Of a stretch of DNA of 14,020 nt, positions 2,854 to 13,113 are shown piece by piece; the stretch's first letter is position 1, and each line of letters starts with the position of its first letter. Source of the stretch: Candidatus Omnitrophota bacterium. GTDB lineage: Bacteria > Omnitrophota > Gorgyraeia > 2-02-FULL-51-18 > JAGOUK01. Position numbers and translations under genes: made by a program. Under the pieces are notes generated by a model, which searched no databases, had not been told where the DNA came from, and saw only the letters and a program-made list of their open reading frames with translations. The stretch lies in assembly GCA_020058965.1 (NCBI GenBank), contig JAGVCY010000105.1:1-14020 (forward strand), in the 5' to 3' direction.

Positions 2854-3570
2854 CTATTTGATCGCTTTTTTCTGCAATTGAACCAGCTCCTGAATTCCGG
2901 ACTTAGCCAACGCGATAAGCTTTTTCATCGCGGCGTCGTCGAAGGGCTCGCGCTCCGCGGTGCCCTGCACTTCGATGAACTTGCCGGAGCCGGTCATGAT
3001 GATATTCATGTCGACATCGGCCGTTGAATCCTCGGTGTAGCACAGGTCCAGGCACGGTACGCCGCCGACCACGCCCACGCTCACCGCGGCCACATGATCC
3101 CGAATGGGGTTTTCTTGAATAGCGCCGTCCTTGAGCAGCTTCTGCACCGCATGCGCCAACGCCACAAATCCGCCCGTGATGGCCGCGCAGCGCGTCCCGC
3201 CGTCGCCCGACATCACGTCGCAATCGATCAGGATCGTTCTCTCGCCGAGCTTGGCCATATCGACCACGCTACGCAAGCTGCGACCAATCAGCCGCTGAAT
3301 CTCGGAACTCCGCCCGTCAATTTTTCCTTTAGAAATATCGCGCGGCACGCGGGTCGGACAGGACCGCGGCAGCATCGCGTACTCGGCCGTGACCCAACCC
3401 TTCCCCGCTCCCTTCATGAACGGCGGCACGCGATTCTCGACCGTCGCGGTGCTAAGCACCTCCGTCTCCCCCACCGTCACCAGACACGACCCCTCCGCAT
3501 GCCGGTTGGCTCCCGCCTTCAGCCGCACCGGTCTCATCTCATTTGCCTTCCGCCCGTTCAATCGCTTCAT
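2854..3570 (-). CDS. rph: Ribonuclease PH
   Basis: The 238-residue protein is the normal size for RNase PH, a phosphate-dependent 3'-to-5' exoribonuclease that trims tRNA 3' ends and works as a hexameric ring. Diagnostic stretches are the N-terminal [17 protein letters not shown], then [30 protein letters not shown] (phosphate-binding arginine region), the active-site segment [17 protein letters not shown], and [18 protein letters not shown] near the C-terminus. The active site reads SGDGGTRCA where many homologues have QADGGTRTA; the key Asp and Arg are kept. The ATG has a strong ribosome-binding site just upstream (3573-3580), which settles the start. It is the first gene of the rph-rdgB pair. 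Its upstream gap holds a TTGTCG-N17-TATACT promoter. Confidence 0.97.
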
Positions 3571-3572
3571 CG

Positions 3573-3580
3573 CTTCCCCT
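3573..3580 (-). promoter_or_regulatory. Ribosome-binding site of rph
   Basis: AGGGGAAG on the minus strand sits two bases before the ATG of rph. It is one of the clearest Shine-Dalgarno sequences in the window and supports that start. Confidence 0.7.
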
Positions 3581-3647
3581 ATTCGTTCTGTTGAGCTAAG
3601 CAGTGGATTTATGAGACCCGTCGCAAAAGGCGCCGTTCTTGTGATTC

Positions 3648-3676
3648 AGTATAGGTGTTCGAGGGGGTTCCGACAA
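3648..3676 (-). promoter_or_regulatory. Sigma-70-type promoter for rph-rdgB
   Basis: On the minus strand, TTGTCG (3671-3676) is followed after exactly 17 bp by TATACT (3648-3653). The same hexamers and spacing appear upstream of the DASS gene and of the histidine kinase. Identity with the copy at 9506-9534 runs on for a 13-base block, GTTGTCGGAACCC, covering the -35 box. Transcription would begin near 3641, giving a leader of about 70 nt before rph. The rest of the longer repeat seen at the other two sites is not recognisable here. GGGTT-gtcgg-AACCC can also form a hairpin, so a weak terminator for the upstream DASS gene may overlap. Confidence 0.65.
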
Positions 3677-3688
3677 CCCGCGGTCTCT

Positions 3689-5083
3689 TTATTTAAAAAT
3701 GAACGGGACGAACCCCGCAGCTATCCAAACGATGGGAATACACGCCAAGTCAGCAAGCAGGCCGACATAGATCATATCCCGAAGGCGAATCAACTTGGAT
3801 CCGTAGACCATCGCGTTGGCCGGCGTAGAAACCGGAAGCGTCAAACCCAGGCTCGTTCCAAATGTTGCGGCAAATGCCAGCGAAAGGCCCGCGATCTTAT
3901 CCTGTCCGACCGCCGAAAGGACCAAAGGGATCATGACATTGGCCGCGGCCGTATTCGACGCAATGGTGCTGAACACCGCCGCCACGAGAACGGTGACCAG
4001 GATCAGAGGATAATAATTTCCTGAGGCCGGCGGCTGCAGCCAGGCACTGCCGAGAAAAGCGCCGAGGCCGGTATCAAATATGGCGCGGCCAAGCGCGATC
4101 CCTCCGCCAAAAAGCAGAACCGTCCCCCAATCGATGGCGAGCGTGTCCTTCCAGCGCAGAATTCGTTCGCCCCAAAACGCTCCGGACGGCAGAACAAAAA
4201 GGATCCCGGAGGCGAGGATACCGACAACCGCCGGCGGAAATCCAATCACCCAACACACCACGGCGCCGGCGAAGCAAAAAAAAGTGATGCGCTCGGCCAT
4301 CGACCATGCTCCCGGCGGGTGGAAGGCCGCTTTTAAATTTTGGAGTTGTTTGGAGGCGCTTCGCGTGGGCGGGTGGAGCACAAAAATCACGATCAGGTAA
4401 CGCACGACAAGAATCACCGCCGCCAGCGGAAGTCCGATCACCATCCATTTAAAAAATCCAACCTTCACCCCGAGAATGTCGCTCATGAAGGCCACTGCGA
4501 TGAGATTGGGCGGGGTGCCTACCGGAGACGCCATTGCGCCGGCCGACGCCGCATACGGCAGAATGAGCAAAATCGCCGCCGCGTACCTGCGGTCTGACTT
4601 TTCGGCCATGCGGGCCAAGACCAGCGCCGCCGGCAGCAGCATAGCGACCGTCGTCGTGATGCTGAGCCACATGGCTAGACCCCATGCGACCAAGCCAAAC
4701 GCCCACAGCGTGCGGTGCGAATCGCCTCCCACCCAGGGATGGACGATCAACGCGTGCGCCACACGGTTGTCGAGCCCGTGCCGGTGCATGGCGTGGGCAA
4801 GCAAAAAACTTCCGATAAATAAAAAAAGGACCGGATCCGTGAACGATTGCATCAAGACCGCTGTGGACATGGCGCCCGCCGCCAGGCAGAGCGCGCAGCC
4901 GAGAAGCGCGGTGACCCAAAGAGGGGCCGATTCCATGATCCAAAAAGAGACCACCAGAACCATGATGGCAAGCAATCGGTGGGCTTCCGCGGACAGGCTT
5001 GGAATGGGTATAAGCCAAACCAATACGGCCAACACAACCCCAAAAATACTTTGAAACTTGATGCGGGCTACCGGATGCTTCAA
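3689..5083 (-). CDS. DASS (SLC13)-family anion-sodium symporter
   Basis: The 464-residue hydrophobic protein has the two-half layout of the divalent anion:Na+ symporter family, inner-membrane carriers for di- or tricarboxylates, sulfate or similar anions. Landmarks are TM1 at about residues 12-28, the first re-entrant hairpin motif at 140-150 (WLSITTTVAMLLP), GTPPNLIAVAF at 189-199, the second SNT motif at 376-378 (IASNTAAANVMIPL), and LPVSTPANAMVYGS at 416-429. The first hairpin reads SIT where the family usually has SNT; the SNT asparagines help bind substrate carboxylates, so substrate or affinity may differ. The start is TTG at 5081-5083 with no good ribosome-binding site. It is favoured because it keeps TM1 whole; a GTG at residue 17 would cut into it. 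The start codon lies at the edge of the promoter-bearing repeat. The substrate cannot be named. Confidence 0.88.
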   Translation of the reverse strand: MKHPVARIKFQSIFGVVLAVLVWLIPIPSLSAEAHRLLAIMVLVVSFWIMESAPLWVTALLGCALCLAAGAMSTAVLMQSFTDPVLFLFIGSFLLAHAMHRHGLDNRVAHALIVHPWVGGDSHRTLWAFGLVAWGLAMWLSITTTVAMLLPAALVLARMAEKSDRRYAAAILLILPYAASAGAMASPVGTPPNLIAVAFMSDILGVKVGFFKWMVIGLPLAAVILVVRYLIVIFVLHPPTRSASKQLQNLKAAFHPPGAWSMAERITFFCFAGAVVCWVIGFPPAVVGILASGILFVLPSGAFWGERILRWKDTLAIDWGTVLLFGGGIALGRAIFDTGLGAFLGSAWLQPPASGNYYPLILVTVLVAAVFSTIASNTAAANVMIPLVLSAVGQDKIAGLSLAFAATFGTSLGLTLPVSTPANAMVYGSKLIRLRDMIYVGLLADLACIPIVWIAAGFVPFIFK

Positions 5084-5154
5084 ATTTTGCGCTTGTGGAA
5101 GGGAGTGAAAATTGTCTGTTCGTCTATTTTCGGGGAGTTGCGCATTGTTGCATT

Positions 5155-5183
5155 AGTATATGCGCTCAAAGGGCTTCCGACAA
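5155..5183 (-). promoter_or_regulatory. Sigma-70-type promoter for the DASS gene
   Basis: TTGTCG (5178-5183) and TATACT (5155-5160) on the minus strand are 17 bp apart, matching the copies upstream of rph and of the kinase. A start near 5148 gives a leader of about 65 nt to the TTG start. It lies in the best-conserved part of repeat copy A. Confidence 0.68.
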
Positions 5184-5243
5184 CAAGACACTCAGTGGGT
5201 CTTGCGCCTACTATCGGCTATTATCGGCTGGTTGAGGCAGTTG

Positions 5244-5263
5244 TGGTATCCGAGTGGTATCCC
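5244..5263 (-). promoter_or_regulatory. Paired TGGTATCC boxes upstream of the DASS promoter
   Basis: TGGTATCCG (5244-5252) and TGGTATCCC (5255-5263) are direct repeats whose starts are 11 bp apart, about one helical turn. They lie about 60-80 bp upstream of the -35 box. Copy B at 9595-9614 keeps the same pair and spacing. This suggests a tandem activator or regulator site, but the regulator is unknown. Confidence 0.5.
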
Positions 5264-5272
5264 AAACAGAGA

Positions 5273-5287
5273 AATGCCCCGGGCATT
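5273..5287 (-). terminator. Possible weak terminator after the kinase-ATPase operon
   Basis: AATGCCC and GGGCATT form a short palindrome 23 bp past the stop of the receiver-ATPase gene. On the minus strand it is followed by a T-rich but interrupted run (ATTTCTCTGTTT). The perfect stem can be only about 5 bp once a loop is allowed, so this is tentative. Confidence 0.28.
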
Positions 5288-5309
5288 CGCTTTAGAGACG
5301 CTCGTTTTC

Positions 5310-7442
5310 TTAGAGTTGGTGGTGTTTAAGCACCAGTTTCATGCGCGCGATCAGCTTATCTTTGTCAAATGGCTTACACAGGTAGTCGTCCGCGCCGGCA
5401 TCGAGACCCGCGAGCTCACTTTCTTTGTCCTGACGGGCGGTAAGTATCATGATCGGGATCGAGGCGGTCTCAAGATTTTTTTTGAGGATCGAGGTCGCCT
5501 CGAAGCCATTCATTTTTGGCATGGTGACGTCAGTGATGATGATATCCGGATGGTGCTTTAGCGCTTTTTCCACAAGTTCTTCGCCGTCCCTCGCCTTGAT
5601 CACCTCATAGCCCGCCATCTCCAAGCGCGAAACAAGCACTTCGAGGATCCCTTCATCGTCCTCCGCGGCAAGCACACGGATGTTCGCACCTGGACGGCGC
5701 AATTGATGCATTCTTTCATCAATTTCCCAAACCTCCGCCACCCGCGCGAGTTCTTCGAGCGATGTGACACCCTGAGCGACTCTGCGCATCCCGGATTGGG
5801 CCAGTGATTTAAACCCGATTTTTCGGGCTTCTTTAAATAGCTCATCATCCGAGGCGCGCGCTGCGATGAGCGACCGCATCGCATCGTTGACCTCGAAGAT
5901 CTCAAAAATCGCCGTTCGGCCGTAGAATCCTGTGAACCTGCATCTCCGGCACCCCTTGCCCGTATGGAATTTTTGAATCCCCAGCTCGTCGATATGCACG
6001 CGATACTTCTCCAGCAGCTTCGGGTCCGGAGCATGCTCGGTCTTGCATTCACCGCAAATGACCTTGACCAGCCGCTGAGCAACGACCAATACCACCGAGG
6101 AGGCCACCAAATAGGGTTCAAGACCGATATCAAAGAGCCGCGTGATGGAGGATGCGGCATTCTTCGTGTGCAGCGTCGAAAAAACAAGACGTCCGGTCAG
6201 CGCGGCCTGCGCCGCCATGTCCGCGGTCTCTTTATCGCGGATCTCGCCGATCAGAACAATATCAGGATCCTGTCTGAGGATACTGCGCAGACCACTGGCG
6301 AATGTGATGTTCTTGATCGGGTTTACCGGAATCTGCGAAAGTCCGTCGATCATGTACTCAACGGGATCCTCCAGCGTGACAATGTTCTTCTTGGATAACT
6401 TGAGATGATTCAACGCGGCGTACAGTGTCGAGGTCTTGCCGGAGCCTGTTGGTCCGGTGACAAGAATCATGCCGTTTGGCTTGGACAACGACCGCATAAA
6501 AAGCTCGAGCTCCGGAGGATCCAACCCGATGTCCTTGATCTGGATCTTCGCCTCCTTGAAGTCGAGAATGCGGATCACCGCCTTCTCGCCGTGGATAGTC
6601 GGCACGATCGATATCCGCAGATCCACATCGCGGCCGTCGGCGGAGATCCGAGCGCGGCCGTCCTGTGCCTGGCGGTGCTCGGCGATGTTAAGGTTTGACA
6701 TGATCTTGATCCGCGAAATGATCTGAGGGTGAAGGGACTTGGCAAAAGTCGCGATCTCTTTCATTTCACCATCAATACGCTCGCGCACGACGAAGCCGCT
6801 CTCCTGCGCCTCCAGATGAATATCGCTCACGCGATTTTTTAGCGCGTCACTCAGAATGAAGCTGACCAGCTGCACGGCCGGCGAGTCATCATCCGCCAGT
6901 TGGTCGATCACGACTGTCGAGTCAAGTTGACCGCCGACGTCCGCGATCTCTCCCTCCGAAAGAGTGGCTATGTTCTTCAGAATCTCATAAATCTGGTCAT
7001 TGGCCTGGTAATGTTCGTTGATGCACGCGCCGATCGCCGTTTTGGACGCAAGAATCGGTTGGATGGGATGCTCGGCAATCGTCTCAAGCTCTTCTTTAGA
7101 ATTCAAATCTAACGGGTCACCCATCGCTACGACAAGCACCCGTCCTTCTAGCCTCAAAGGAAAAGCTCCGTACATTTTCGCGGTCTTGTATGACAGGAGC
7201 TTGAGTACAGCCGGATCCTTTTTTTCTTTATCAAGGTTATATGCGGAAATGCTGCAGGCGGTCGAATAGGACTTGAGATAGTCCTCCTCACTCAAAAATC
7301 CCATATCTATGAGGACTTCGTGAATGGGACGGCGGGCTCCGAGCCGCTTGTCCTCCGCATCACGGAGTTGTTCCCTGGTGATCCGCTTGTCTTTGAGAAG
7401 CGCTTCGGTGATGCTCACACCTGATCTTGCCGGATCAACCAT
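5310..7442 (-). CDS. GspE/PilB-type secretion/pilus ATPase with C-terminal receiver domain
   Basis: The 710-residue protein has an N-terminal GspE/MshE-like region (about 10-145), the hexameric assembly-ATPase core (about 185-575) and a response-regulator receiver domain (about 588-708). In the core: Walker A GPTGSGKT at 330-337, Asp box TLEDPVEY from 356, Walker B DPDIVLIGEIRD from 392, His box FSTLHT at 421-426, and a zinc-binding pair CGEC (463, 466) and CRRC (498, 501). In the receiver: acidic cluster E594-D595-D596, phosphoacceptor D638, T668 and K690, all the residues needed for phosphorylation. Such ATPases drive type IV pilus extension or type II secretion from the cytoplasm. The C-terminal receiver is unusual. 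The N-terminal region has only degenerate RLG-type repeats, so c-di-GMP binding is doubtful. It starts 4 bp after the free response regulator, with no obvious ribosome-binding site, so translation is probably coupled. No pilin or secretin genes are nearby. Confidence 0.95.
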   Translation of the reverse strand: MVDPARSGVSITEALLKDKRITREQLRDAEDKRLGARRPIHEVLIDMGFLSEEDYLKSYSTACSISAYNLDKEKKDPAVLKLLSYKTAKMYGAFPLRLEGRVLVVAMGDPLDLNSKEELETIAEHPIQPILASKTAIGACINEHYQANDQIYEILKNIATLSEGEIADVGGQLDSTVVIDQLADDDSPAVQLVSFILSDALKNRVSDIHLEAQESGFVVRERIDGEMKEIATFAKSLHPQIISRIKIMSNLNIAEHRQAQDGRARISADGRDVDLRISIVPTIHGEKAVIRILDFKEAKIQIKDIGLDPPELELFMRSLSKPNGMILVTGPTGSGKTSTLYAALNHLKLSKKNIVTLEDPVEYMIDGLSQIPVNPIKNITFASGLRSILRQDPDIVLIGEIRDKETADMAAQAALTGRLVFSTLHTKNAASSITRLFDIGLEPYLVASSVVLVVAQRLVKVICGECKTEHAPDPKLLEKYRVHIDELGIQKFHTGKGCRRCRFTGFYGRTAIFEIFEVNDAMRSLIAARASDDELFKEARKIGFKSLAQSGMRRVAQGVTSLEELARVAEVWEIDERMHQLRRPGANIRVLAAEDDEGILEVLVSRLEMAGYEVIKARDGEELVEKALKHHPDIIITDVTMPKMNGFEATSILKKNLETASIPIMILTARQDKESELAGLDAGADDYLCKPFDKDKLIARMKLVLKHHQL

Positions 7443-7446
7443 GCTT

Positions 7447-7818
7447 TTAACGCGGTTCTGTCAGCCGTTTGATCGTGGCGATAAGCTCTAAATGATCATA
7501 TGGTTTTTCAAAAAAAGCATCGGCACCGGCATCGAGCACGGCTTTTTTAAGCGCCGCATCTTTGGACCCGGTAAGGATCAGGATCGGAATCAAGTTGGTT
7601 CGCACCGATTGCCTGAGGTTGCGAAGAACCGAAAGCCCTCCACCGGCGGGCAGCATCAAGTCGAGGATGACCAAATTGGGCTTGAATTTGTGACATTCGC
7701 TGATGGCCATAATGGCGTCCGGCGCTGCCGCCACCTCATAACCCGCATCCTGGAGACGATGGCAGAGCACCATAGCGATATCCTGCTCGTCCTCTACGAT
7801 CAATACCCTCTTCGGCAT
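7447..7818 (-). CDS. Single-domain (CheY-like) response regulator
   Basis: The 123-residue protein is a complete receiver domain with no output domain. It has the acidic cluster E9-D10-E11, phosphoacceptor D53 (VILDLMLPAGGG), T83 and K105 followed by P. The frame stays open upstream to 7929, but the start is placed at the ATG at 7816-7818. That ATG is preceded by AAGGAG at suitable spacing, and the next residues (PKRVLIVEDE) are the normal beginning of a receiver. The longer version would overlap the kinase gene. It lies 31 bp after the kinase stop and 4 bp before the receiver-ATPase gene, so the three genes form one operon. It probably takes phosphate from the kinase and may act as a shuttle, a sink, or a binding partner of the ATPase. 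Those roles are inferred. Confidence 0.92.
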   Translation of the reverse strand: MPKRVLIVEDEQDIAMVLCHRLQDAGYEVAAAPDAIMAISECHKFKPNLVILDLMLPAGGGLSVLRNLRQSVRTNLIPILILTGSKDAALKKAVLDAGADAFFEKPYDHLELIATIKRLTEPR

Positions 7819-7825
7819 CAGCTGA

Positions 7826-7831
7826 CTCCTT
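7826..7831 (-). promoter_or_regulatory. Ribosome-binding site fixing the response-regulator start
   Basis: AAGGAG on the minus strand ends 7 bases before the ATG at 7816-7818. It argues for the 123-residue product over the longer open frame. Confidence 0.7.
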
Positions 7832-7849
7832 ATATTATGGCGCGGGTGA

Positions 7850-9382
7850 TCATTCTGCCGCGCGCCGCCGGTCCACGATCGGCAGTATAAAATAAAATAT
7901 TGATCCTTTGCCCAACTCCGATTCAACATTTATTTTACCATTTAGCTGCGTGATGATTTCTTTGGAAATTGCCAAACCGAGTCCTGAGCCGCCTGTTTTG
8001 CGCTCATGCATAGATTTTACTTGGCTAAAGCTCTGAAAAAGCTTGGGGAGGTCTTCCGGCCGCATTCCACCCGCCTGATCGATCACGTCGACACGCACGA
8101 AGTTATCACCGGATGAAGTCCGCACCCGCACTTCCGTGCCCGGGGACGAGAACTTGATCGCATTACCGATAAGGTTGTAAAGGACTTGAACGATCCGGCT
8201 TTGGTCAGATTGGATCACGGGCAAATTCTCTTGGGTCTGATTGATCAGCCGCACTCCGGCGGCTTCCGCGTTCACCGCGAGACTTTCGGCCGCCTCCGCA
8301 ACTGCCTCACCGATCCGCGTCGGGCCAATCATGAAGCTCATCGCTTTGGCTTCGAGCTTCTGGATATTGAGAAGATCATTGATCAGGGTCATAAGACGCT
8401 CGATATTTTTCATGATAAGGTCCGCAAATTTTTTCTGACGCTCGTTCAGCGGACCGGCGCTGCCGTCCTGGATAATAAGCGCGCCTTCCTTGATCACGGT
8501 GAGGGGGGTCCTTAGCTCATGGGAGATAATGTTCAAGAATTCGCTCTTGGCCTTCGCCAATTCAACGGCCTTGCGCTGTTCGATCACCTTCTCTTCGGCA
8601 AGTTTGCGATCGGTGATCGGCACGCGGATGGAGAGATACCGTTGAGGCTTCCCGTCAGATCCCATAAATGGCACAATCGTTCCATATACCCAGTAAACGG
8701 ATCCGTCCTTGGCGCGGTTGCAAACCTCGTCTTGCCAGACCCGACCCGCGCCGATAGTGGCCCACATCTCCCGGAAGAAGGTTTTGGGATGATGGCCGGA
8801 ATTCAAAACACGGTGATCTTTGCCTATGAGCTCCGCGCGGCTGTATCCGGATATTTGGCAAAAAAGATCGTTCACATAGGTGATTCGGCCCTGCGAGTCG
8901 GCTTCAGAAACGATCGCGATTTGGTTGAGTGCTTGTTCGTGAATGCTGAGCTGACGCGTGAGCTCCGCTCGCTTCGCCTCACTTTGCTTGATCGCATTGA
9001 CCATATCGTTAAATCTGCGGGCGAGATCGCCGATTTCATCCCGTCCAAGGTCCGGCACAAGCTCGTCTTCCCTCCCCTCAATATGGGCGGATATGACGTT
9101 CTGTATCCGCGCCACACGATTGATCACCATTAAGCGCAGAGTGATCAATAGTGCCGCGGACAGAATAAATGCGATGATAAACGCCATGCCAAAAACGATC
9201 CGGGTCAACTCACCCGGGTCGATTTCTATTCCTGCTCCCGCAGGCCGACCCGCAAGATGCTGGCTAATATGCCAATCCGACCACAGCCTTCCGAGAAACA
9301 TGCTCACGCCAAAAATAGCTGCTCCCACGAGGATCAGGCGTGACTGCAATGAGTGTATATTGAGAAGATTGCGAAGCTTCAT
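7850..9382 (-). CDS. Membrane-bound PAS sensor histidine kinase
   Basis: The 510-residue kinase has two membrane segments (about 15-33 and 61-84) enclosing a short periplasmic loop of under 30 residues. Next come a HAMP linker (about 85-135), a PAS domain (about 148-262; ITYVNDLFCQISGYSRAELIG), a HisKA dimerisation helix with phospho-acceptor H288 in ISHELRTP, and a HATPase_c domain with N-box NLIGNAIKFSS (403-413) and G2 motif GGSGLGLAI (464-472). The G1 motif reads DQAGGM (435-440), where DxGxG is usual. The small periplasmic loop suggests sensing within the membrane or through the cytoplasmic PAS. No receiver domain is attached; two receivers follow in the same operon. The ATG at 9380-9382 has GAAAGG (9391-9396) eight bases upstream as ribosome-binding site. 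The signal is unknown. Confidence 0.96.
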   Translation of the reverse strand: MKLRNLLNIHSLQSRLILVGAAIFGVSMFLGRLWSDWHISQHLAGRPAGAGIEIDPGELTRIVFGMAFIIAFILSAALLITLRLMVINRVARIQNVISAHIEGREDELVPDLGRDEIGDLARRFNDMVNAIKQSEAKRAELTRQLSIHEQALNQIAIVSEADSQGRITYVNDLFCQISGYSRAELIGKDHRVLNSGHHPKTFFREMWATIGAGRVWQDEVCNRAKDGSVYWVYGTIVPFMGSDGKPQRYLSIRVPITDRKLAEEKVIEQRKAVELAKAKSEFLNIISHELRTPLTVIKEGALIIQDGSAGPLNERQKKFADLIMKNIERLMTLINDLLNIQKLEAKAMSFMIGPTRIGEAVAEAAESLAVNAEAAGVRLINQTQENLPVIQSDQSRIVQVLYNLIGNAIKFSSPGTEVRVRTSSGDNFVRVDVIDQAGGMRPEDLPKLFQSFSQVKSMHERKTGGSGLGLAISKEIITQLNGKINVESELGKGSIFYFILPIVDRRRAAE

Positions 9383-9418
9383 TTCTACTGCCTTTCGATT
9401 AAAAACAGAGGCGCCGGT

Positions 9419-9443
9419 TTATCTCACACCCCAGATTTTGTGC
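9419..9443. repeat. Left 25-bp direct repeat (attL-like), copy of the queE 3' end
   Basis: This stretch is identical over 25 bases, and in the same orientation, to 12379-12403. There it encodes the last seven codons (HKIWGVR) and stop of queE. Here it has no gene in front of it, only the kinase leader, so it reads as a detached queE tail. Beyond 9443 the two sequences diverge. It marks the left border of the AT-rich AbiE segment. Confidence 0.85.
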
Positions 9444-9505
9444 TTGTGGGTAACGAGCATTTTTGGTTTGTCGTCTATTTGCGGGGAGTTTCGCATGGTT
9501 GCATT

Positions 9506-9534
9506 AGTATATGCGGTCAAAAGGGTTCCGACAA
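9506..9534 (-). promoter_or_regulatory. Sigma-70-type promoter for the kinase-ATPase operon
   Basis: TTGTCG (9529-9534), 17 bp, then TATACT (9506-9511) on the minus strand. A start near 9499 would give a leader of about 115 nt that runs through the queE-tail repeat to the kinase ATG at 9382. Hexamers and spacing are identical to the two other copies. Confidence 0.68.
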
Positions 9535-9594
9535 CAAGACGCTAGTCGGGCCTTTCGTCTACCTGCGTCTACTATCGGCTGGTAGTGGCAGCGA

Positions 9595-9614
9595 TGGTAT
9601 CCCAGTGGTATCCC
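9595..9614 (-). promoter_or_regulatory. Paired TGGTATCCC boxes upstream of the kinase promoter
   Basis: Two perfect copies of TGGTATCCC, at 9595-9603 and 9606-9614, start 11 bp apart. They lie about 60-80 bp upstream of the -35 box. The arrangement mirrors copy A and is consistent with a regulator binding two adjacent helical turns. Confidence 0.52.
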
Positions 9615-9624
9615 AAATCAGTGT

Positions 9625-10320
9625 TCAGCGCCGTCCAGGGATGTGCGGGTAAAGGTCTGGCACAAGATCCGACTGCCAGTATTGGTGACTGTCGATATCC
9701 ATGATGGTGAGCTTACCGCTCCAACCGCCGCCGGTATCCACGGCCCAAACGTTGCAGGCGTGAACAGGCTTGAGCGTTTTATAACATTCGGTAGTCGTAT
9801 GACCCACAAAGATGTCGTCCCATTTTCCGTAACGGTGGTCCGGCTTGTGTCTCGCGACCATCACGGCTTTGCTCAACAAATCCCTGTCCCACATCAAAAG
9901 CTCGGGGGATTGTTGGGTCATTTCCAAGTCGGGGTTAATTCCACCGTGAACGAATAATTTATTGTCCAATTCCATGAAAAGCGCGGCATCCTGCAATAGT
10001 TTTTTATGAGACCCCGGAACGCGCGCTCTGTCGCGCTGATAAGACTCCATCGTTGCCAGCCCGCCCTGGCTTGTCCAGATCTCCTCCATCCATCCGTCTT
10101 TCATCCACCGCAAGGTCCACTCGTCGTGATTACCTAAAATAAGTTTGAGATTCTTGATTCGCAACAGCTCGTCGATCACCTGACGAACTTCGGGCCAGCC
10201 GTCACAAAGATCTCCAAGCGAAATCAAAAGATCCCTTTCCGGATCAAATTTTGACCGTTCAAGGCACTGCACAAGCGCCTTGTGTCCGCCGTGAATATCG
10301 CCGATTACAAATCGTTTCAT
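9625..10320 (-). CDS. PPP-type metallophosphoesterase (Ser/Thr phosphatase or ApaH-like)
   Basis: The 231-residue protein carries the full metal-ligand set of calcineurin-like PPP enzymes: GDIHG (D8, H10), GDLCDG (D37), GNHDE (N64, H65), VHGG (H125) and GHT (H174), then DTGGGWSGKL near the C-terminus. The compact size and the closing DTG.....L.. motif match the bacterial and lambda-phage PP group, which dephosphorylates phosphoproteins; diadenosine-polyphosphate hydrolases share the same signature. Substrate cannot be decided. The ATG at 10318-10320 has AAGGGGAG in front of it, and the gene begins 10 bp after the AbiEii stop. It is therefore probably the last gene of the abiEi-abiEii transcript, an uncommon companion for that module. 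It sits just inside the putative islet. Confidence 0.9.
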   Translation of the reverse strand: MKRFVIGDIHGGHKALVQCLERSKFDPERDLLISLGDLCDGWPEVRQVIDELLRIKNLKLILGNHDEWTLRWMKDGWMEEIWTSQGGLATMESYQRDRARVPGSHKKLLQDAALFMELDNKLFVHGGINPDLEMTQQSPELLMWDRDLLSKAVMVARHKPDHRYGKWDDIFVGHTTTECYKTLKPVHACNVWAVDTGGGWSGKLTIMDIDSHQYWQSDLVPDLYPHIPGRR

Positions 10321-10324
10321 TTAG

Positions 10325-10332
10325 CTCCCCTT
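10325..10332 (-). promoter_or_regulatory. Ribosome-binding site of the phosphoesterase
   Basis: AAGGGGAG lies four bases before the phosphoesterase ATG and overlaps the stop codon of the toxin gene (10331-10333). It supports both the start and co-translation from the AbiE transcript. Confidence 0.65.
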
Positions 10333-11251
10333 ACCGCCACGGTCCGAGAGCTTTCCATTTGCCGTCAAAGCCCTTCTTCTGGGCAAGCGCTTTAACCGGC
10401 TTTTCAAGAAACGCTTCGATAAGTTTTGCAACTTCGCTTAGAGTAGCCGGAGCATGTTTTGCTTTAAGAATATTTAAAAATCCGCGCCATAGTTCTTGTT
10501 GGTCGGAGTTCGTTTCATAAATTGAATCAACAAAAAACGGCGGTTTATCCGGAAGCATGGTTTTGCGATGTGTGAACGTCTTATCAAGCGCTTTAACAAG
10601 ACTTTCTCCTTCAAAATCAAATTGCCGGATCATGAGCCAAACGTCATAAAAGTCCTTCATTCGGCTGTTTAAAACCCCAAGCTTTACCATCGCCTCAAAT
10701 TTTTCCGCAACAACGGTCTCCATCGGATATCCTTTAATTCTGGGCTTTGGAAGATCGAGGATTACGGGATAATCGATTATTTGAGGCTTGGGATAAATCG
10801 TATCCCCGAATCCGATATCAACCTGCATCCAAATACGCGACCGCTCAAGAAAACCCGTAAACTTTACACGAACGCCTTCGTATTCAGCGCCTTCTTTTAT
10901 CTTTCTGACCTTGACCGTATCGGGATCAAAAAGCAGGCCATCGCCAGCAACCTGGGCCCGGCAGATCTCTTTCATGATACTTTCGGCTTTGGCTATCCGA
11001 TTATCAAACTGTCCGAGAAGGTCGATATCCATCGTTGCGCGGCTTTCGCTCACCCGCCACACCGCAAACATGAGAGCGCCTTTTAGGATAAACCAATCCC
11101 TATATTCGGTTTGACCCAAACGATAGAGAAAGCGCTCCATCGCATAGTACTGAAGAATTTCGGAAAATGGCCGGCTCGTTTCTTTGCTTTTATTCGTCAG
11201 TCTTGCTTTAATTGATGCAGAAAGATTTTTAATTTCGTTTTCGTTTTTCAT
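10331..11251 (-). CDS. abiEii: AbiEii/AbiGii-family nucleotidyltransferase toxin
   Basis: The 306-residue protein has the AbiEii layout: a nucleotidyltransferase fold with LKGALMFAVWRV (56-67), the paired acidic motif RATMDIDL (metal ligands D75 and D77), WMQVDIGFGD (141-150) as the probable third acidic site, then ETVVAEKFEAMVKLG and RMKDFYDVW (lysines 184 and 190, D200, D203). Characterised AbiEii proteins bind GTP, arrest growth and give abortive infection against phage; the related MenT enzymes transfer nucleotides to tRNA. Its ATG overlaps the antitoxin stop in a 4-bp ATGA, the usual coupling in this system. It lies downstream of the antitoxin and upstream of the phosphoesterase. All catalytic residues appear intact. 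The gene is AT-richer than the housekeeping genes, in line with horizontal transfer. Confidence 0.92.
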   Translation of the reverse strand: MKNENEIKNLSASIKARLTNKSKETSRPFSEILQYYAMERFLYRLGQTEYRDWFILKGALMFAVWRVSESRATMDIDLLGQFDNRIAKAESIMKEICRAQVAGDGLLFDPDTVKVRKIKEGAEYEGVRVKFTGFLERSRIWMQVDIGFGDTIYPKPQIIDYPVILDLPKPRIKGYPMETVVAEKFEAMVKLGVLNSRMKDFYDVWLMIRQFDFEGESLVKALDKTFTHRKTMLPDKPPFFVDSIYETNSDQQELWRGFLNILKAKHAPATLSEVAKLIEAFLEKPVKALAQKKGFDGKWKALGPWR

Positions 11252-11850
11252 GAAAGGGTCTTAAGATACGGTTTGATTGATTTTTCTACGCGGCATATTT
11301 TTGCGTATCGCATAATATCGTTCGGTGAAATATGGTGCTCGGCAACCGCGGCTTTAAGTGCCTCTAGCCCGATATTCTCGCCTATTCTTAGTCGGAATTT
11401 AAAGCAGTCCGCTATCGTCTTGGCTAGAGAGTAAACACGAACTTTCCGCCCGTCTATCTCGTGTTCTTCAATGCCTGCTTCATACGCTTTTTTTGAAAAG
11501 TTATAATACCGAACCGGTGGATGATCGATTCGATTTGCCCAAGACCCCCTTGGAATCGCGAGATGAACCTCATGCGGGATTTGATCTGTGGCGCGATGAA
11601 ATGAGAGCGCGGAGATAAGGCACACGACAGCACGGGGAGCTTTGATGGAGGCCACCACGAGATCGGGATTCGAGAGACCTTTCCCACTCGATAGCTTGTA
11701 GAGCCCTCGATTTACTTTTTCAACTTTACCCGAACGCTGAGAGGCCCTCAGAGGGGTCGCAAGCCCTGCTTTTCGGATCTCCGAATAAGAGGCGATGCCG
11801 TGTCTTTCCTTAAGAAAGTTCGTGAGGGTCGCGCTTTTCTTTGTTTTCAT
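11248..11850 (-). CDS. abiEi: AbiEi-family antitoxin and transcriptional autorepressor
   Basis: With the ATG at 11848-11850 the protein has 200 residues. It has an N-terminal winged-helix region (about 1-60: LTNFLKERHGIASYSEIRKAGLATPLRASQRSGKVEKVNRGLYKL) followed by the AbiEi C-terminal domain (SALSFHRATDQIPHEVHLAIPRGSWA, then VYSLAKTIADCFKFR). AbiEi proteins repress their own promoter through the N-terminal domain and neutralise AbiEii through the C-terminal domain without a stable complex, the type IV mode. An in-frame GTG at 11869-11871 would add seven residues but begins inside the inverted repeat. The ATG is preferred, although neither has a strong ribosome-binding site. The stop overlaps the toxin start as ATGA. 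It is controlled from the promoter and operator at 11860-11910. Confidence 0.92.
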   Translation of the reverse strand: MKTKKSATLTNFLKERHGIASYSEIRKAGLATPLRASQRSGKVEKVNRGLYKLSSGKGLSNPDLVVASIKAPRAVVCLISALSFHRATDQIPHEVHLAIPRGSWANRIDHPPVRYYNFSKKAYEAGIEEHEIDGRKVRVYSLAKTIADCFKFRLRIGENIGLEALKAAVAEHHISPNDIMRYAKICRVEKSIKPYLKTLS

Positions 11851-11859
11851 GATATCTAT

Positions 11860-11910
11860 AATCCTATACACTTACTTAAAGAGTGTATAGGATTACGGCA
11901 TGTTTTTCAA
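11860..11910 (-). promoter_or_regulatory. abiE promoter with overlapping inverted-repeat operator
   Basis: AATCCTATACACT (11860-11872) and AGTGTATAGGATT (11882-11894) are perfect 13-bp inverted repeats separated by 9 bp. On the minus strand a promoter TTGAAA (11905-11910), 17 bp, TACACT (11882-11887) overlaps the distal arm, so a bound dimer would block RNA polymerase. Known AbiEi proteins autorepress by binding inverted repeats in their promoter, which makes AbiEi the likely ligand. The antitoxin ATG lies 10 bp past the proximal arm. Confidence 0.75.
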
Positions 11911-11927
11911 GAGGCGTTGAGCAAAAC

Positions 11928-12245
11928 TTATACCGATTCTTTTCCACGAAGACTCTTCCTCAGAAATAGGACCTGTCTAATGACCTGTGATAGCAATTTT
12001 CTGTAACGGGCCCTGCTATCTTTAATTTCTTTGTATTTCCGTAATTCTGCCTCGGATAGTTTTCCTTTGTAGACAAACCTTACTTTTTTATCTTCTCTTG
12101 AAATAAGGTAATAGTAAGCGTGGCCTTTTATCTTCTTTTTTACAAGACTGCCCTTCGGAAGCTTGGCAAGCTCCCGCTCATAACCCTTCTGCATACGCAG
12201 GGAGCTGGAGAGCTCTTCCTTTAAAACGCCTTTGATGGGACCCAT
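11928..12245 (-). CDS. Small conserved basic protein of unknown function
   Basis: This 105-residue, lysine-rich protein has a helical N-terminus (KEELSSSLRMQKGYEREL), a central beta-type segment (LPKGSLVKKKIKGHAYYYLISREDKKVRFVYKGKLS) and a helical C-terminus (EAELRKYKEIKDSRARYRKLLSQVIRQVLFLRK). The 'LPKGSL..K.IKG..YYYL..R....V...Y.GK' pattern recurs in small bacterial proteins that, from memory, often sit near nucleotidyltransferase toxin-antitoxin loci; no function is known to me. It is a real gene: an excellent ribosome-binding site (GAGGTGA at 12249-12255) precedes the ATG, and an elaborate operator region lies upstream. It ends about 17 bp upstream of the abiE -35 box and reads the same way, so it may belong to the same module. 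Confidence 0.78.
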   Translation of the reverse strand: MGPIKGVLKEELSSSLRMQKGYERELAKLPKGSLVKKKIKGHAYYYLISREDKKVRFVYKGKLSEAELRKYKEIKDSRARYRKLLSQVIRQVLFLRKSLRGKESV

Positions 12246-12248
12246 TTA

Positions 12249-12255
12249 TCACCTC
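12249..12255 (-). promoter_or_regulatory. Ribosome-binding site of the 105-residue protein
   Basis: GAGGTGA, three bases before the ATG at 12243-12245, is a near-consensus Shine-Dalgarno sequence. It is the main support for this small gene being expressed. Confidence 0.72.
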
Positions 12256-12272
12256 AATGTTTTATTGCCATA

Positions 12273-12363
12273 CATTGTCTGGGTATTCTTCTATTGTATG
12301 GTAACTTCCTTGTAATTAAAGTTACCATACAATATCCGTATATTCAATATTTGTATGGTAACT
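12273..12363 (-). promoter_or_regulatory. Four-site alternating operator and promoter region of the small protein
   Basis: ATTGTATGGTAACTT (12293-12307) and AAGTTACCATACAAT (12319-12333) form a perfect 15-bp inverted repeat with an 11-bp loop. A third copy, TTGTATGGTAACT, lies at 12351-12363, and a degraded inverted one (GCCATACATT) at about 12277-12286. The sites therefore alternate in direction across ~90 very AT-rich bases. On the minus strand TTGAAT, 17 bp, TAACTT is a candidate promoter whose -10 falls in the 12293-12307 / 12319-12333 palindrome. The TGTAT-GG core resembles TGTATAGG in the abiE operator, so AbiEi is one candidate ligand. This stretch otherwise fills the gap to queE. Confidence 0.68.
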
Positions 12364-12378
12364 AAAAACTAGGTGGGA

Positions 12379-12403
12379 TTATCTCACACCCCAGATTTTG
12401 TGC
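12379..12403. repeat. Right 25-bp direct repeat (attR-like) at the 3' end of queE
   Basis: The stop and last seven codons of queE are identical to 9419-9443 and in the same orientation. Here the sequence is part of an intact gene, so this copy would be the functional end kept or restored after insertion. Confidence 0.8.
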
Positions 12404-13113
12404 ATCTGGGGGATGACGCGGACATCTTTGAGCGAGGCGGAGGCGAGGGTGAAAAATTCTTTTTCGATCAACTGCATCGCGGGGACGCTCATGCCGGTCA
12501 TCAGGCTCTCGGGTTGGAAAATAAACGGGATGCGCGGGTCGACTTCGGCAACGAGTTGGATGGAGCGTTCGATGTCGGCGCGAGATACCGCAGGTGTGAT
12601 CACGGTTTTTACAAAAACTTTGGTGCGGCGGGCGATGGCCAGGAACTCGCGGTGTTCGTCCCAGTACGCGCGGTCACCGGTGCTGGTGGGGGGCTTCAAG
12701 TCCATCGCGACAATGTCGATCGAGCCGACCACCTGATCGAGGGCGCGCGGAAAAGTGCCGTTTGTTTCAAGATAAGTCGTCAGATTGCGGGCCTTGAGCT
12801 CCGGCAGGATGGCTTTGAGCGCGCCCAGATACATGAGAGGTTCGCCGCCGGTCAGACTCACCGAGTGGTGCTGTCCCTTCTCCCGCTCAAACACATCGAT
12901 TTGGCGGACCACATCGGCGACGGGCACCGACTGATACATCCCCTTCTGCATCTTATCGAGCTCGTCGCAGTAATGGCAGTGCATGTTGCAGCGGCCGAAG
13001 CGAACGAAGATCTGCTTTTTGCCAAGGTATGGTCCTTCGCCCTGAATAGACGAAAAAATCTCCGAAATCTCCGTCATCACCGGCGCGGTTTGTTTCTGAA
13101 TGTCGTTCTTCAC
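12379..13113 (-). CDS. queE: 7-carboxy-7-deazaguanine synthase (radical SAM)
   Basis: The 244-residue protein converts 6-carboxy-tetrahydropterin to 7-carboxy-7-deazaguanine, a step toward preQ0 and queuosine in tRNA. It has the QueE opening EIFSSIQGEGPYLGKKQIFVRFGRCN, the iron-sulfur motif C42-x3-C46-x2-C49 (CNMHCHYCD), the SAM-binding SLTGGEP at 86-92, LETNG, and the closing VIPQMHKIWGVR. The GTG at 13111-13113 overlaps the murI stop as GTGA, with GAGGAG eleven bases upstream, so the two genes are coupled. An ATG at residue 13 (13075-13077) is a possible alternative nearer the conserved domain. CDE follows the last cysteine where CDT or CDS is more usual. Other queuosine genes are not in the window. 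Its last codons double as the putative integration site. Confidence 0.95.
   Translation of the reverse strand: MKNDIQKQTAPVMTEISEIFSSIQGEGPYLGKKQIFVRFGRCNMHCHYCDELDKMQKGMYQSVPVADVVRQIDVFEREKGQHHSVSLTGGEPLMYLGALKAILPELKARNLTTYLETNGTFPRALDQVVGSIDIVAMDLKPPTSTGDRAYWDEHREFLAIARRTKVFVKTVITPAVSRADIERSIQLVAEVDPRIPFIFQPESLMTGMSVPAMQLIEKEFFTLASASLKDVRVIPQMHKIWGVR

Follow-up and report, generated by a model that had tools for sequence, protein, structure and literature searches.

The 3' end of queE as a very probable attachment site for stacked tyrosine-integrase elements in one Omnitrophota order

Lambda-type attachment sites, which lie beside the integrase gene, have a core flanked on either side, at a fixed spacing, by paired arm repeats. 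A resembling layout, in which repetition and spacing suggest an arm function, lies downstream of queE (7-carboxy-7-deazaguanine synthase) in the window analysed here, the whole 14,020-nucleotide (nt) stretch of contig JAGVCY010000105.1 from a Candidatus Omnitrophota bacterium. We consider it very probable that the 3' end of queE is an attachment site of tyrosine-integrase elements in one order of the Omnitrophota, and that the locus is a tandem stack of decayed inserts.

In Dehalococcoides, tandem islands are stacked behind one conserved gene, ssrA, and are bounded by short copies of its 3' end; some lack integration genes, and the end of the recombinase gene overlaps the attachment site (PMC3146451). 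The queE locus shares with these islands the serial arrangement, the 3'-end copies and a gene end at the attachment site. The ssrA islands, however, target a tmRNA and use a CcrB-like recombinase (DsiB), whereas at queE the target is a protein gene and the recombinase a tyrosine recombinase, and the element ends at queE include a conserved promoter and start codon (PMC3146451). The accretion of cis-mobilisable elements (CIMEs), as outlined in PMC5704250, resembles the queE locus in its decayed, recombinase-less inserts and in the arrival of newcomers at the target-side copy. A CIME keeps both attachment sites, whereas the inserts in the window, with recombination genes lost and cores on both sides, lack the proximal arm repeats and for that reason are not CIMEs. 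Islands at dusA and SXT at prfC (SXT as cited within PMC8409611) are like the queE inserts in that the element end brings a promoter and a start codon to the border with host genes. Those elements insert at the 5' end and rebuild the target gene, whereas queE retains the promoter it had and that of the element points towards the genes downstream. We did not find queE as an integration target in the open-access literature searched. With this locus a gene of the queuosine pathway joins the protein genes whose ends take up integrating elements, and does so in a phylum with few accounts of its mobile DNA.

The queE tail and the element end module

The repeat TTATCTCACACCCCAGATTTTGTGC, which is the last seven codons and stop of queE with one extra base, stands at 9419-9443 and 12379-12403 in identical orientation with a 25/25 match, as an earlier sequence-only reading of the window had stated. 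By our own calculation, the chance of an exact 25-base repeat in 14 kb is about 1e-7. That reading also called for further queE-tail copies to be sought in this genome, a metagenome-assembled genome (MAG) that is 72% complete. A search of its 1,680,464 bases with a 24-base piece of the repeat, allowing up to 3 mismatches, gave no third copy, so the sequence is not scattered through the genome. The core, GCACAAAATCTGGGG, also occurs in relatives within the order. The best NCBIfam match of the gene is queE, though under the curated cut-off, and in genomes of family f2 of the order queE is 57-61% identical to that of the window. The following features define the site and the two recognisable element ends, where layer 2 is the insert next to queE (9419-12378), layer 1 the one beyond it (5068-9418), and G011 one of the relatives, which are denoted by G numbers.

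12379-12403, minus strand: queE tail, core attachment sequence, queE-side copy (exact repeat, genome scan)
12379-13113, minus strand: queE, 7-carboxy-7-deazaguanine synthase, radical SAM, the target gene (family scans)
9419-9443, minus strand: queE-tail core, distal copy, layer 2, 25/25 (repeat comparison)
9419-9496, minus strand: short frame of 25 amino acids (aa) that opens at the module's start codon, past the promoter, and closes at the stop of the copied queE tail (module alignment)
9506-9534, minus strand: predicted outward promoter of layer 2, TTGTCG-17-TATACT, towards the kinase gene (conservation, position)
9562-9618, minus strand: integrase gene stump of layer 2, last ~19 codons, with arm repeats at 9595-9615 (protein and DNA match to G011)
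5068-5264, minus strand: decayed end module of layer 1, with arms 5244-5264, promoter 5155-5183, start codon 5143-5145 and core relic 5068-5092 (repeats, alignment)

The distal copy had been described as an exact repeat with no gene attached. The repeat is exact, but the copy adjoins the stump of an integrase gene and belongs to a conserved end module. A repeat finder aligned 5120-5266 with 9471-9617 (83-84% identical) and added a 30-nt piece at 3648-3677. The order of parts in the module is two 10-bp arm repeats within the last codons of the integrase gene, a promoter, a start codon and the queE-tail core. We aligned six modules without gaps on the promoter (two from the window, one each from G011 and G004, two from G013): all six include the arm region, promoter and start codon, and the core or its relic is present in five. 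Averaged over pairs in 20-nt steps, identity is 0.40-0.85 between arms and core versus 0.21-0.31 outside. The distance from arms to core is 172 nt in the four modules whose arm pair is found by pattern (both window copies, so that layer 1 has the spacing of layer 2, and those of G011 and G013). In control sequence of 653,142 and 315,042 bases, a count that includes both strands, the pattern has 0 matches. The layer-2 module matches the end of the G011 integrase gene at 74% in DNA (E-value, E, 1.6e-19); as protein, the stump is 58% identical over 19 residues (E 0.07), which is weak alone.

Two other explanations of the 150-nt repeat were rejected. A genome-wide repeat would recur, and besides the query itself there are just two other places, both in the window. 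A structured RNA has no Rfam match at E up to 1, and the fold is ordinary (z -1.21).

The integrase, the viral contig and the relatives

On contig JACPAX010000014.1 of G011, a Candidatus Omnitrophota MAG, the module forms the 3' terminus of a tyrosine integrase gene with an open frame of 401 aa. Residues R214, H326, R329, H352 and Y362, which we take to be the catalytic residues of the family, are invariant in an alignment of 8. The window carries 3' stumps only; the sequence-only reading was right that the full gene is absent, but the 3' end of the gene is present there twice.

That reading had left a choice between mobilisation in trans and decay. We find it unlikely that the inserts are CIME- or satellite-like elements still moved by an integrase from another source in the same cell or population. 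In the five modules without an integrase gene homology ends within ~45 nt of the arm repeats, as if the recombination site alone had been kept, and the integrase family has ~20 close members in public data (50-78% identity). Against movement in trans, the proximal arm repeats are missing from the window, the core of layer 1 is decayed, and no integrase of the G011 family was found in the window's own genome, 72% complete, at E 1e-30. Decay is thus favoured: the layers of the window are probably fixed and immobile, because their integrase genes have been reduced to the module and no arm repeats are left beside queE.

A scan of IMG/VR for the core returned one contig, UViG_3300021057_000009, of 42,306 bases. 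Its 399-aa integrase and that of G011 share 33% identity over 356 aa, and behind the integrase gene lies AGATGCACAAAATCTGGGGAGTGAGATAATC, 30/31 identical to the queE end of the window, with TCTAACA repeats discernible by eye on both sides of the core. The contig also has a primase-like gene (DUF5906, Pox_D5). The match suggests that its host belongs to this group of Omnitrophota, and that viruses and cellular elements share the queE site. The promoter and start part of the module was found in 0 viral contigs, and a search for the queE tail in annotated phages gave just two chance-level matches (E 2 and 5).

The order comprises 16 genomes, mostly fragmented drafts, and we compared 12 queE loci with downstream sequence. 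Module DNA is present in 6 of the 16: the window's own genome, G011, G013 and G004, with 23-24-nt pieces only in G015 and G003. In the relatives the modules share a contig with queE and follow it downstream in a matching relative orientation, except for a second G013 copy on contig C39. Signs of attachment appear at 7 of the 12 loci (window, G011, G013, G004, G015, G003 and G007). A proximal 10-bp arm pair follows the queE stop at +59 in G004 and G015; a different pair stands at +60 in G013 and G007, and a diverged pair at +59 in G011, which escaped the pattern, was recognised by eye. In G003 another tail copy (23/25) precedes the proximal end, which is 4.2 kb off, and in G004 a second proximal end directly follows the distal core of the first insert (+14204), so stacking is seen in other genera too.

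An insert-free site is seen in G002, which shares the family (f1) of the window but belongs to another genus, is the only other f1 genome with a full queE match, and has a queE end without the core. Its locus reads murI-queE-rph-rdgB, with rph beginning at the queE stop; relative to it, 3571-12378 of the window is inserted. In the same-genus genome G001 a full queE match was not found. The uninterrupted order had been expected to be murI-queE-kinase-regulator-ATPase, and the G002 order contradicts this. The earlier suggestion to look in relatives for queE followed directly by the kinase gene gave nothing: the kinase, regulator and ATPase have no match below 1e-30 at the queE loci of 11 relatives, and a scan of 29 loci with flanks of at most 1.5 kb gave none at 1e-4. 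The insert of G013 has a kinase-regulator pair, unrelated to that of the window. As G002 lacks the kinase block, and as an older, decayed end module (5068-5264) bounds it, the block is not an ancestral neighbour of queE.

The end modules, the whole integrase, insert-free G002 and the viral core together make the queE 3' end an integration hotspot, and the original proposal of site-specific integration at this gene end is strongly supported. It is highly improbable that the tail copies arose by segmental duplication or misassembly with no site-specific recombinase involved. The window is one MAG contig and lacks the proximal arms, but independently assembled genomes of other genera have the same module with a queE-tail copy, in one case together with the integrase, and the viral contig bears the core.

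Several observations weigh against the attachment-site explanation. The integrase was found in 1 of the 16 order genomes (E 1e-30), and 5 of the 12 queE loci (G002, G005, G006, G009 and G012) have no attachment signs. No proximal arm pair was found in the window behind queE or behind the core at 9419, and the protein matches of its integrase stumps are weak (E 0.07 and 0.16). The tail copies of G011 and G013 (17 and 16 of 25) are at background by score, and their case is one of position. The insert of G013 pairs two end types, and its module on contig C39 is away from queE and has no queE tail. All the genomes are MAGs.

The insert in G013 (locus L044) has one arm type at its proximal end and the other at its distal end, which suggests a fusion of two elements. 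On C39 of the same genome (L054, 1483-1936) the module runs in frame into an unrelated reading frame of 115 aa that includes a membrane segment, and the start codon of the module could drive that frame. In G005 (L049), CGAACTGTTATCCGCAAAGGGCAG directly behind queE resembles by eye, with gaps, a decayed proximal element end.

A class-wide hotspot was considered and rejected: at 32 queE loci of other orders (G021, G024, G025, G036 and G055, with queE matches <1e-45, were left out of the tail comparison) the best tail matches were 14-17/25, versus 13-17 on the reverse strand. The module query matched 6 of 384 class genomes, five of this order including the window's own and G300 with a 24-nt match only; at this level it missed G011, which the order-level search had found.

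Stacked layers and their cargo

The locus had been read as a single islet. Instead we find two serial inserts separated by site copies, with modules at 9419-9615 and 5068-5264, and a relic at 3648-3676 that makes a third, transporter layer probable. Layer 2 contains the following features.

9625-10320, minus strand: calcineurin-like (NinI-like) phosphatase (family scans)
10331-11251, minus strand: AbiEii-like nucleotidyltransferase toxin (Pfam, PADLOC)
11248-11871, minus strand: AbiEi-like antitoxin (PADLOC)
11928-12245, minus strand: 105-aa small protein of a widespread family (homologue search)
12260-12366, no strand assigned: AT-rich repeats, both inverted and direct (GTTACCATACAA-like), probable operators ahead of the 105-aa gene (repeat finder)

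Layer 1 and the probable oldest layer are as follows.

7850-9382, minus strand: PAS histidine kinase, layer 1 (family scans)
7447-7929, minus strand: response regulator, layer 1 (family scans)
5310-7442, minus strand: T2SSE ATPase with receiver domain, layer 1 (family scans)
3689-5083, minus strand: sodium-sulfate-symporter-like transporter, probable oldest-layer cargo (PF00939, PF03600; layer deduced from the promoter relic)
3648-3676, minus strand: relic of a promoter belonging to the probable oldest layer, ahead of rph (repeat, promoter pattern)
2854-3570, minus strand: rph (RNase PH), far border of the inserted stretch, directly after queE in G002 (family scans, G002 comparison)

Identity of the cores to the present queE tail falls from 25/25 at 9419-9443 to 15/25 at 5068-5092, and no core is recognisable at 3648-3676. 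At least 15/25 identity is reached by 0.036% of 25-mers on the same strand; at 3648-3676 the promoter alone is recognisable, by a pattern calculated to be expected 0.007 times in the window. This gradient of decay is consistent with repeated insertion beside queE. In the mechanism we propose, the integrase would recombine the core of the element with the matching queE end, approximately 25 nt long, which would preserve the queE sequence and leave a copy of its tail at the far end of the insert. A newcomer would use the core attached to queE and displace the older insert outward; with reuse of that core, the age of inserts would grow with distance from queE. Afterwards the integrase gene would be lost down to the module and, in the window, the proximal arms as well. 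The AT-rich repeats at 12260-12366 occupy the place of the proximal arm repeats of relatives.

The insert of layer 2 had been called AT-rich, and overall it is, with a GC content of 46.2% over 9444-12378 versus 57.9% for queE-murI and 53.2% for the kinase block. The difference comes mainly from the AbiE and 105-aa genes (44.0%), whereas the phosphoesterase gene is at 51.6%. Family scans confirmed the defence toxin-antitoxin pair and the phosphoesterase proposed for it: AbiEii matches PF08843 (E 2.7e-38) and PADLOC (E 1.8e-99), AbiEi matches PADLOC (E 4.8e-66) with Pfam AbiEi_4 below its cut-off, and the phosphatase matches PF00149. The two AbiE genes are adjacent, as expected of an AbiE toxin-antitoxin system, which by homology they probably encode. 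The proposed small conserved protein is indeed widespread, the 105-aa product having 623 relatives at E<=1e-5, at least 120 of them among the matches listed; its precomputed PF20586 label was not reproduced by our own Pfam scans at E 1e-3. The insert of G004 holds a partial relative of the phosphatase, 54% identical. By eye, an inverted repeat, TAATCCTATACACT...AGTGTATAGGATTA, lies at the start of AbiEi (11858-11897) and is probably an AbiEi operator.

The cargo was also considered as a defence island, and this was rejected. Among 9 proteins of relatives' inserts scanned, 3 match candidate (PDC) models, one of which is also weakly Cas/CARF-like, and a 1514-aa protein of G011 has no match; we claim AbiE alone. 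In layer 1, beside the kinase and regulator, the T2SSE-type ATPase has a fused C-terminal response-regulator receiver domain.

The outward promoter and its possible roles

Across modules the first promoter box is TTGTCG or TTGTCC and the second, after 17 nt, TATACT or TATAAT. In the genome the pattern TTGTCS-17-TATAMT matches at 4 places: three are the layer borders of the window, and the fourth (C289) is inside a gene and has no module. In a plain consensus scan the three border promoters are no better than other sites, and 9 sites in total compare with 8.0 in shuffled sequence; the case for a promoter is therefore one of position and conservation. The transcript is predicted to start a few bases before the AUG, from which the short frame would run 54 nt into the copied queE tail; in layer 2 it ends at the tail's own stop codon. 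As to coding constraint, pairwise differences in the short frame are 112/82/112 by codon position and another frame contains a single stop among the six copies, so we claim none.

Since rph begins at the queE stop in G002, an insert there would cut the downstream genes off from the queE promoter. We tentatively propose that the module repairs the operon by restoring transcription of the next gene, perhaps with translational coupling, and that the host keeps the promoter after the death of the element. Each of the three layers in the window would then have left a promoter ahead of the next gene block. If hosts do keep it, an element that lands in an operon could be harmless from the start and leave regulatory parts behind. 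Plausible, if short of probable, is that the promoter serves the element itself, reading across the joined ends of the excised circle into the element's first genes. The module would point into the proximal end in the circular form, and the integrase-bearing copy of G011 shares the promoter and start codon, but the promoter boxes are retained in copies without an integrase and even in the relic, where nothing else is recognisable. The module may serve the host, the circle or both. Its fixed structure also makes it a DNA marker by which such inserts can be found in MAGs from which the integrase has been lost.

A second conserved promoter-like sequence, TTGTCCTTTCTTGATTAAAAT..TATACT with near variants, occurs at 9 places in 8 genomes of the order (for example G004 C58, G011 C49 and G013 C29). 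Elsewhere in the window, a long inverted repeat at 2094-2239, between rdgB and an AsmA-like gene, matches a plant microRNA model weakly, far under the cut-off; its 47-nt arms are 87% complementary.

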